Source: Datnioides undecimradiatus (Eukaryota > Chordata > Actinopteri > Lobotiformes > Datnioididae). From it: a DNA stretch of 64,000 bases. A program made the translations under genes and the position numbers. Positions 692-4,422 of the stretch are shown here, piece after piece. Within the stretch, counting starts at the first letter, position 1. Each line of letters begins with the position of its first letter. The stretch lies in the NCBI GenBank assembly GCA_008933995.1, contig WARS01000034.1, forward strand, positions 1,627,501-1,691,500, written 5' to 3'. The notes beneath the pieces are model-generated. The model had not been told where the DNA came from. It worked only from the letters and a program-made list of their open reading frames with translations, and did not search any database.

Positions 692-3600
692 TCATGCAGC
701 GACTGGGTAAGAGCAGATGGACGCTCTCTTCAGCTCACAGTCGTTGGCCGTCCACCAGCTCTCATCTGCAAAAAGCAGCGGGGCAGATTTGTAAAAGACA
801 CGTTGGCTCGAGGAACATAACTCACATTTCCGAGCCAGGAGTATTTAGTAAAATTATGACTGAAGTTAATAATTCAAGATCTTATCTCTGCGTTTCAGGG
901 CCAGATGTTAATAACAGTGGCATTACACAACACGGAAAAGAGCAGATGAGCTTTAATTAACGAGCACTGCTTGTTGAGGGAGGTCAAATGGGCACATTTA
1001 ACTTATACTGTTCAGGCACAGCAGAGAAGAGTCACCAAGTCAATGGGTGAACATTCTGTTCATGAGATCTTACCATCAAAAGTTCAGTAACATAAGTTCA
1101 GATAAGTCTAAATAAGCCAGTGGTCACAACCAGGAGGTTTTTGCTGACTCATAAATCAGTCGTCATTGTGTCATTGATGTGTGTCCAGTGAGTGAGTGCA
1201 GTTCTTACCTATCTTGAACATCTCCACACAGGCAGGTTTGTCTGTGTGAATGTTGGGGTGACCCGGCATCCAGTCACTGTAGCTCCACTCTGACCCGTCT
1301 ACCCAAGATGCCTGCTGGTTCTGAGGTGTGTAACACCAACACACAGTATTTCAAAGATGTGCAAAGATGTGTGGCTTGATAACAGTTCTATTTAAAACTG
1401 AATTATAACGTCACATTGATACATATTTTAAAAATAAATCCCTTTTTTGAAAATATTGCAGCGGTATTATCAGCTTTGGCTGCTCTGTACTTTAGGTACA
1501 GAAACAGATGGCACATCTTAAAATAAAGGTTCAGAGGTCAATGTTTTACCAAGGTAAGAATAACACTATCTGTGCTGTTGATAACATATCTGATGACACT
1601 CTCCTTGGCCTCCAGTCCAAGCCACAGTACAGGACCAGACTGCTGGCGTCACGGTCAGCGAGCAAATGAATACAAATGGCGATATGAGATCGTTAGAGGT
1701 TTCTGGAAACGTCATTCTGAGATTTGAGTGCGACTCCCTTTTCTTAAAAGAGAGTACACTGTCCAGAGATATTTTTATGGGTACTGAGAGTGACAGGAGG
1801 ATGCCACTGCTGCTGCACTACACCACTCTAACTGTACATTTTCAGAAAAAAAGTCTTTCAGACCAAGCAGGTGGTTCATTGTTGATGAGAGGAACTTGCC
1901 TTGACCATGCCTCCAAGCCAGGTCAACACAGGGTTGCTCTGGCCACCCTTGGTCACCAGGGAGACCAGATGGGAATGCAGGTCACCGCTGGTTACAGAGG
2001 CAAGCTCAGCATTTGGTGCAAGAGCTCTGCATAAGGCCTGGAGATAGAGGACAATGAAAAGGGTGAGCCTCAAGCACAGACTCACCACTGATGGTTAACC
2101 TGGATGGATTGGATGTTTGTATTTGTAATGTAATGTGTCTCACCTGTGCATCCTGGAAGGCCAGCGGTGTGGGGTTGAACTCATAACAGTTTCCAAGGAT
2201 AACCTCCCCCTTACATGCCACTGTCTGTGTTTGGATCCCAGAGGTGAAGGGTTCAGTTCCCTGTCTAAAACCGTCTGGGATGGAGATAAAAGGCTCAGTT
2301 CCCTGTCTAAAACCATCTGGGATTGACATAAACGGTTCAGTTCCCTGCCTGAAGTCATCTGGGATTGAGATAAACGGCTCTGTTCCTTGTCTAAAACCAT
2401 CTGGGACAGAAATCACAGACTCAGTTCCTTGTCTGAAACCGTCTGGGATAGACACCATAGGTTCAGTTCCCTGTCTGAAACCGTCTGGGACAGAAATCAC
2501 AGACTCAGTTCCCTGTCTGAAACCATCTGGGATGGACACCATAGGTTCAGTTCCCTGCCTGAAACCATCTGGGATAGACCTCATGGACTCAGTTCCCTGC
2601 CTGAAACCATCTGGGATAGACACCACAGGTTCAGTTCCCTGTCTAAAACCCTCTGGGATGGACACCATAGGTTCAGTTCCCTGTCTAAAACCTTCTGGTA
2701 TTGACACCACAGGTTCAGTTCCCCGTCTAAAACCCTCTGGGATGGACACCATAGGTTCAGTTCCCTGCCTGAAACCATCTGGGAGACCAGGAGCAGAGGG
2801 TTCCTCCACCCGGACCCAGCCTTCACCATTCCTCTGGGCAGGAGCGTCAATGGGACCTGGAAGACAGAGGGTCTTTAGATCATACAGACTTATTTAATTA
2901 TGGTGATGTTGTATGGAGTAGATAAAAGGCAACATCAGTCTGCAGCCATGCTCAGGTGGTCAGAGTGGAGCATCTCTGGCATCTCTGCTGTATCTCAGTA
3001 CTTTCTTGTGGTTGACAAATGAAAACAGTGGAGAATAAATTATGCTTGATTTTCTATAAATTGTGACAGTTTCACACCATAGCTTCCTCACCGTCATCTG
3101 TCAGCCAGTGTCTTCGCTCCATCTCTCTGTTTCCCATAGAATGACGGATAAAATCTAGAAGAGGAAATGTCAAAATGAGAAAAATGTCCTAAAAGGAATC
3201 CTAATTACAAGTCAATAGCTCCGCATAAGGTTTGATCATGCACTCACCCACTCTCCTGTCCATCTCACTGACATGTTCCTGCACCAGGCCGGTGTTGAGG
3301 TCAACAAGGAATCTCCTGGAGGGCTCTGTACCTTGTCGGAAGCCGTCGGGAACAGGTTCGCGGTTGTCAAAATGTTCAGTGCCCTGTTGGAAGCCATCAG
3401 GGAGCTGGTTGGCTGAAGATGTCTCCTGCAAACGTCTAAGGACTGAAAGCGGGATAGCCTGGAGGCCTGTGATGAGCATAGATTGGTTGGCAGTGAGCTG
3501 GTTTTGGCTTTCTCTTTGCAGGCTGATTGAGTTTGTAAAACATCAGTTACACAAAAGATATGCATTTCTGAGAGTAACAATCTTTCAGCAGCTGGCACAT

Positions 3601-4422
3601 CCTGTTTAATCAGAAAGAAAGGCAAACCTAATGAGCACTCTCTGAGTACATAGCTTAGACTTATTAAACAATCACCCATGCCAATTGACAGATATGTGAC
3701 TGTTTAGCTTCTTACATCAATTATTAACTTGTGCCAGGGTAATATGTAGGCCACAGCTTTTCGGTAACAGTGTAATAAATCAATAATGGTTAAAGTCTAA
3801 TATCTGCACAGGTCAGCTGCTCTGATTACATTGTTGCCACAGTATTCAGTTCTGCTGATGAGGCAACAAAGATGCAATTAATTAGAACATGAAAGTCACA
3901 GAGGAAGTTACAAAGGTCATTAAAAGGAATAAAAATGTTCTGATACCATTTTTCTAATCTCAGTGATGTGCATCATCACAATAACTGTAGTCTTTCAAAA
4001 GCCTCCAATTAGCTATGGAAATGTTGATATTTTACTTTATACAGTGTAACAACCATTAACTGTCAGTCATTAAGTTAAACACATTTACACTCCCATTGTG
4101 AAGTTTGTTATGTTGAAAAACAAACCACACACAAAAAACAAGATTCTGTAATCTGCATGACAAGCTGTTAAACCCATTATAGTAAGAATAGTGTTTTGAA
4201 AAACAGCATCAGAAGAATAAATGAAATAAGGAAATGATCTTAAGTCAGACATTTAGAGACAAGGAAACAGTTATTCTGTGTTTGTGAAAGCTGGAAGAAT
4301 TGCATAATTTATCATGAGTTATTGCTAATTTTGTTTGAAACATTTGATATGAACACAACTAAAATGAAAAATGAATGGATCTTACCTGACAGTGTCAGGA
4401 ACAGCAGCACGAGCTTGAACAT
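692..4422 (-). CDS. Secreted C-type lectin domain protein with 13 tandem 14-residue repeats
   Basis: Seven coding exons in transcription order: 4422-4386, 3466-3248, 3154-3092, 2856-2144, 2037-1900, 1320-1209, 765-692. All phases agree, giving 451 aa. Residues 1-16 (MFKLVLLFLTLSGLQA) look like a signal peptide. Residues 17-130 form a polar stalk with two early repeat units. Residues 131-312 are 13 copies of a unit like IPDGFRQGTEPMVS. Residues 320-451 are a C-type lectin-like fold: paired early cysteines C321/C330, C347, a WLGG core, WVDGSEWSYSDW, and a closing cysteine pair before the stop. The intron after the WLGG exon appears to use a GC donor. A non-coding first exon probably precedes the ATG. 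The gene diverges from fdx1. The CTLD recalls fish ladderlectin/type II antifreeze-like or proteoglycan-2-like lectins, but I know no named protein with this repeat array. The domain call is firm; function is unknown, perhaps mucosal or extracellular recognition (inference). Confidence 0.85.
2240..2785 (-). repeat. Coding 42-bp minisatellite (13 units)
   Basis: Thirteen head-to-tail 42-bp units lie entirely inside one exon of the lectin gene. Each encodes 14 residues of the form [I/L/V]P[D/E]GFRQGTE[P/S]xxS. Units differ mainly at the three positions after GTE (MV, VV, MR, VI, FI, FM, FT). Because the unit length is a multiple of three, copy-number change keeps the reading frame. Two more divergent units lie in an upstream exon at about 3295-3415, so the array seems to have grown from an older repeat. 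Confidence 0.95.

Follow-up and report, generated by a model that had tools for sequence, protein, structure and literature searches.

The 64,000-nucleotide window analysed here (contig C486:1627501-1691500 in the 581-Mb assembly of Datnioides undecimradiatus) carries near its left edge, on the minus strand, a gene encoding a protein with a signal-like start, a long neck containing repeated peptide units and a single C-type lectin-like domain (CTLD). Seven coding exons with compatible phases join into 1356 nt, encoding 451 residues followed by a stop codon (Table 1), and the start and stop codons were found where the initial annotation of the same DNA had placed them. The exon chain given there holds with respect to the phases of its junctions, though it had been overlooked that GT-AG borders occur at only five of the six splice junctions. 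The remaining donor, after position 1900 (exon 5), is GC, and its context AAG/GCAAGT looks like that of a consensus-type GC donor. Because exons 2 and 3 both begin and end in phase 1, the reading frame would survive the skipping of either one.

Table 1. Coordinates of the repeat-necked CTLD gene, of candidate elements around it and of its relative on contig C468 (positions are those of the window unless a contig is named).
Feature	Position	Strand	Description
Coding exon 1	4386..4422	-	Contains the start codon; signal-like MFKLVLLFLTLS(G); phase 1 at its end; hydrophobic start read from the translation
Coding exon 2	3248..3466	-	Phase 1 to 1; polar neck holding two separate repeat units
Coding exon 3	3092..3154	-	Phase 1 to 1; 21 residues, without a repeat unit; placed by splice sites and phase alone
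Coding exon 4	2144..2856	-	Phase 1 to 0; neck, 13-unit array and N-terminal part of the CTLD
Tandem array in exon 4	2237..2782	-	13 units of 14 residues, consensus PDGFRQGTEP-MVSI
Coding exon 5	1900..2037	-	Phase 0 to 0; CTLD as far as WLGGMVK; GC donor
Coding exon 6	1209..1320	-	Phase 0 to 1; WVDGSEWSYSDWMPGHPN segment of the CTLD
Coding exon 7	692..765	-	End of the CTLD, ICSYPVAA and stop
Candidate polyadenylation signal	578..583	-	AATAAA, about 110 bases beyond the stop; pattern match only
Candidate 5' non-coding exon	4545..4575	-	Ends CTCAG/GTAAGC; pattern reading, 5' bound guessed
TATTAA	4601-4596	-	Upstream of the candidate 5' non-coding exon; pattern reading
Relative on C468 (L023)	G000:C468:6589561 to about 6593890	+	Signal-like CTLD gene with acidic repeat neck

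The larger part of the neck is a tandem array of 13 contiguous 14-residue units (aa 132-313), for which Tandem Repeats Finder (TRF) reported a period of 42, 12.7 copies and 83% matches. The heptapeptide GFRQGTE is exact in 11 of the 13 units, the exceptions being unit 2 (GFRRGTE) and unit 11 (DFRQGTE). Two further units lie in exon 2, namely A (PDGFQQGTEH, aa 35) and B (PDGFRQGTEP, aa 52), bringing the total to 15. The thirteen repeats and the preceding polar stalk that had been annotated are thus both present, with the amendment that the stalk already contains these two units, which had been missed.

The repeat peptide, with the consensus PDGFRQGTEP, is under selection. Over all pairs of the 13 array units, the pooled ratio of nonsynonymous to synonymous substitution (dN/dS) was 0.21, and the corresponding ratio of observed proportions (pN/pS) was 0.08 in the nine-residue core PDGFRQGTE compared to 0.60 in the five-residue spacer. 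Among the array units, the third codon position was variable in 12 of 14 codons, while the first and second positions were each variable in 4 of 14. Unit B, which lies outside the array, uses another synonymous codon than the array consensus in nine of ten positions and changes no amino acid, and when compared with each of the 13 units it shows 5-9 synonymous codon differences and 0-2 amino-acid differences. A back-translated GFRQGTE pattern gave 12 matches in the genome, every one of them in this gene, compared to a single match for the reversed control, and a genome search with the N-terminal neck gave 10 matches, likewise in this gene only.

Lysine and cysteine are absent from aa 17 to aa 313 (window 3466-2237), a stretch that holds 29 arginines and 19 glutamines. 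The isoelectric point (pI) of the array is 4.40 (15 K+R versus 27 D+E) and that of aa 107-316 is 4.39. No N-glycosylation sequon was found. Searching the PDB with the repeat returned no convincing relative; a designed TIM barrel reached E 0.00028 without any stretch that passed alone, and hapalindole cyclases, at E 0.14-0.32, were set aside. Similarly, the Pfam families 40S_S4_C and SH3_VIII-1_N came barely over their cut-offs on the array by way of 11-12 residue pieces and three more Pfam matches fell under their own cut-offs, all of which were taken as chance. In a partial coverage of the literature, no published description of this protein was found, as judged by titles and abstract openings, nor was there any match to the repeat motif strings.

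The array is followed by a complete CTLD, in agreement with the initial annotation: Pfam Lectin_C matches aa 338-446 with E 3.7e-11. The domain is acidic (pI 4.98), and its introns fall before the first cysteine (C1), after the W-L-G-G motif (TWLGGMVK) and between the next two cysteines. When the whole head was searched against the PDB, multi-CTLD receptors led among the best 60 of 123 rows, and the best single-CTLD chain among these was the type II antifreeze protein (2py2, E 2.1e-8). Classical calcium-dependent sugar-binding C-type lectins carry EPN or QPD together with WND as their ligand set. At what we take to be the canonical calcium/sugar ligand positions, alignment to the CTLD of the relative on contig C468 (described below) gave H-P-N, P and T-A here, as opposed to E-P-N, E and N-D in the relative. 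In the window head, other residues stand at four of the five canonical ligand positions, and the EPN/QPD plus WND set is not found. Because of these replacements the term 'lectin head', used when the gene was first annotated, is doubtful, and the protein is probably not a classical lectin. The loss of most of the usual sugar site also calls for caution in naming such genes lectins.

The CTLD introns and the W-L-G-G motif fit the antifreeze-like/EMBP-like/lithostathine group of soluble CTLD proteins, EMBP being the eosinophil major basic protein. In antifreeze protein (AFP)-like and EMBP-like soluble fish CTLD proteins, three introns are described, one before C1, one following WIGL and one that separates C2 from C3 (PMC514892). 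Type II antifreeze and AFP-like proteins (sea raven, herring, Fugu AFPL) have a single soluble CTLD, the WIGL glycine and three introns (PMC514892). The window gene likewise has WxGG, the three AFP introns and only one CTLD, apparently soluble, but adds two neck exons and the repeat array. We know of no long repeat neck among type II AFP and AFP-like proteins.

EMBP and Fugu EMBPL (CTLD group XII) resemble the window gene in having an acidic neck before one CTLD, WxGG and the CTLD introns. The CTLD of mammalian EMBP is strongly basic, which that of the window gene is not. A basic CTLD may, however, not define the fish members of group XII, since the domain of Fugu EMBPL is neutral (pI 7.1) and preceded by a 30-residue acidic neck (PMC514892); by comparison, the neck of the window gene spans about 300 residues with repeats, and its CTLD has a pI of 4.98. 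Both the acidic neck described for group XII (aa 107-316 here) and WxGG (in TWLGGMVK) were found in the window gene (PMC514892), as were the CTLD introns, which do not discriminate group XII because they are common to group VII and AFP. A repeat neck bearing a C-type lectin domain is also a feature of DC-SIGN and DC-SIGNR (CD209, CLEC4M). These proteins have a transmembrane segment between cytoplasmic tail and neck and 23-residue helical repeats that form tetramers, whereas the product of the window gene begins with a signal-like stretch and its 14-residue units contain proline. A short N-terminal stretch is the only hydrophobic segment seen in its translation. Soluble single-CTLD fish proteins, acidic necks and repeat necks carrying a C-type lectin domain (the last in DC-SIGNR, PMC2797785) are already known. 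To speak of an undescribed system, as had been done for this locus, was therefore too strong, because the intron layout and WxGG fit known AFP-like and EMBP-like soluble fish CTLD proteins (PMC514892) and the relative on C468 is repeat-necked as well. The gene appears to be an unusually elaborated member of a known family and not a new kind of system.

The C468 locus was the closest in-genome CTLD match found outside the gene. A signal-like exon ending in phase 1 is followed there by a 1719-nt neck exon and four CTLD exons, and the 724-residue product has a neck of 567 residues (pI 4.18; 51 lysines and 11 arginines) that contains a 36-bp unit in 15.8 copies (TRF), corresponding to a 12-residue repeat of the VEPEVKAEPE(D/I)K type. 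The two genes have in common the signal-like phase-1 exon, the long acidic repeat neck and the positions and phases of the three CTLD introns, and over 130 residues the identity between their CTLDs is 35%. The C468 gene differs in its repeat unit, in the lysines of its neck, in the EPN that its head has kept and in having an intron of its own that divides the neck from the CTLD. Its head matches Lectin_C with E 1.6e-11, and CD23 chains lead its PDB matches (best 60 of 172). Since the nearest in-genome CTLD gene found thus has a long acidic repeat neck of its own, the repeat-neck plan is not unique.

In a tree of in-genome CTLDs, the window gene and the C468 gene paired at 93/90 (31 rows, comprising both genes and 29 of 30 Lectin_C loci; L052, whose core was unread, was dropped), and at 86/84 when a gene on contig C5 was added (32 rows). 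Neither value is decisive, and the branch of the window gene is long (1.95 changes per column). The C5 gene has CTLD exon phases as in the window gene, as read by eye, and the 3 kb read upstream of it show no long repeat neck. The genome search for Lectin_C may have passed over closer relatives, since 150 of 317 candidates were scored in it and the best 30 of at least 123 matches were cut out. Two more places from the CTLD search were discarded, one on C65 that reads like a multi-CTLD receptor and one on C483 in which no CTLD was seen. A test for an ancestral motif common to both necks did not show one: shuffles did as well as the best match of the core (NGMKQGTL) in 35 of 2000 cases, as that of the decapeptide in 756 of 2000 and as that of a version with twelve residues in 199 of 2000, and the alignment of the N-terminal neck was equalled in 61 of 500. 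BLAST of the window neck against the C468 neck gave a best E of 0.18.

The explanation that we favour, with a little less than even confidence, is that of an intact gene for a probably secreted single-CTLD protein of the antifreeze-like/EMBP-like/lithostathine type, in which a long, probably disordered neck displays a selected peptide in 15 copies and the CTLD acts as an anchor. The signal-like start suggests that the protein is secreted, and the first description of the locus, as coding for a CTLD protein that is secreted and repeat-necked, agrees with the sequence in this respect. The neck would form a long, mildly acidic and probably disordered chain, free of lysine and cysteine, that offers a partner many copies of its peptide and keeps the head away from a surface, while the CTLD would anchor the protein via a contact outside the canonical calcium/sugar site. 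The earlier suggestion of a multivalent spacer or display is compatible with an array that was modelled, on limited input, without structure and whose core is selected, though the display of a peptide is a role that we infer. The charge-hydropathy value of aa 17-131 lies on the disordered side (0.395 versus a boundary of 0.432).

Several results weigh against this explanation. The AlphaFold model of units 1-8, which has no secondary structure, a mean predicted local distance difference test score of 34.9 and a predicted template modelling score of 0.10, was obtained from a six-row self-alignment and lends weak support to disorder, and the charge-hydropathy value of the array falls barely on the ordered side (0.438 versus a boundary of 0.437). 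Unit A gives a weaker signal of selection, with 2-7 synonymous codon differences and 2-4 amino-acid differences from the 13 units, and sequence exchange between units is possible, which blurs dN/dS. Moreover, a GFRQGTE-type motif is not clearly present in the C468 neck, and in the reverse search with the C468 head the window's best exon (4.0e-6, 38 residues) was outscored by C480, C466, C38 and C307, although such a search gives unsplit genes an advantage over those divided into exons.

That two CTLD genes of one genome have a common head type but differ in their acidic repeat necks suggests that elaboration of the neck may be a route taken repeatedly in this class of proteins. It is conceivable, if doubtful, that fish possess a small family of secreted CTLD proteins in which the neck, and not the lectin head, does the work, each neck being an independent and rapidly growing array of short peptides under selection (DGFRQGTE in the window gene, the EPEVK type on C468). 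As a speculation, a lysine-free, glutamine-bearing neck could serve as a transglutaminase donor substrate for cross-linking into mucus or a coat. The selected decapeptide in any case provides a concrete object for binding tests.

The main rival to the display of a peptide is that the gene represents a fish counterpart of EMBP (group XII), the array being an enlarged acidic pro-piece for granule packing that is removed on release, which we consider unlikely. The acidic neck of Fugu EMBPL (PMC514892) speaks for it, as does the zebrafish eosinophil marker eslec, a predicted C-type lectin (PMC10821951); in pipefish, a 12-cell cluster called eosinophils expresses nattectin-type lectins (PMC8828949). 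The window CTLD, however, is itself acidic, so that there is no basic charge to shield. Nor was EMBP among the best 60 of 123 PDB rows with the whole head as query or among the best 60 of 172 with the C468 head, and with the C-terminal 68 residues it ranked 33rd (1h8u, E 0.013). Furthermore, SSRP1, a neighbour of human PRG2 and the single synteny marker used for it, lies on contig C482 and not on the contig of the gene.

A neck that is merely a passive spacer, grown by repeat slippage and irrelevant in its exact sequence, is quite unlikely. Tandem arrays do expand easily, the unit of the C468 relative is quite different, and local copying among units is indicated by units 1 and 6, which are identical at the DNA level, and by units 7 and 9, which differ at 2 of 42 bases; irrelevance of the sequence is nevertheless difficult to reconcile with the low pN/pS of the core, or with unit B having kept the decapeptide through its many synonymous changes. 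A defence lectin of the ladderlectin or nattectin kind, binding sugar in a calcium-dependent manner and combined with a spacer, would agree with the Lectin_C match and with a CTLD protein, the type II antifreeze protein, as best single-CTLD chain in the PDB search, but is very improbable with four of five canonical ligands replaced. Finally, a pseudogene or assembly artefact, for which the unusual repeat, the single GC donor and the long tree branch could be cited, is hardly credible given 451 codons without stop or frameshift, exons in phase and variation at third codon positions of the kind expected in coding DNA.

The intron after exon 5 holds an optional in-frame exon (1642-1550, minus strand, phase 0/0, 31 residues), which was excluded from the gene model because leaving it out gives a CTLD alignment to the C468 relative in which the gaps are no longer than 1-2 residues; a Pfam search of this insert with short flanks gave no match. 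The stretch contains a second WLGL-like motif and could have arisen as a copy of exon 5 that then decayed, the alignment of the two being equalled by 16 of 500 shuffles. Elsewhere in the window, minus-strand open reading frames (ORFs) at 31825-32151 and 41053-41547 resemble both ends of one RNA-binding gene, presumably of the NONO/SFPQ type; the former contains 16 consecutive glutamines, and an RRM match was obtained only for the latter. A UnaL2 LINE 3' element (Rfam RF00436) lies at 8470-8523 on the plus strand, and a minus-strand ORF at 58379-58882 matches MMADHC (Pfam PF10229, 1.6e-33). Just outside the window edge (L024, G000:C486:1617600-1627500), plus-strand ORFs resemble a WD40 gene, which we take to be of the neurobeachin type.
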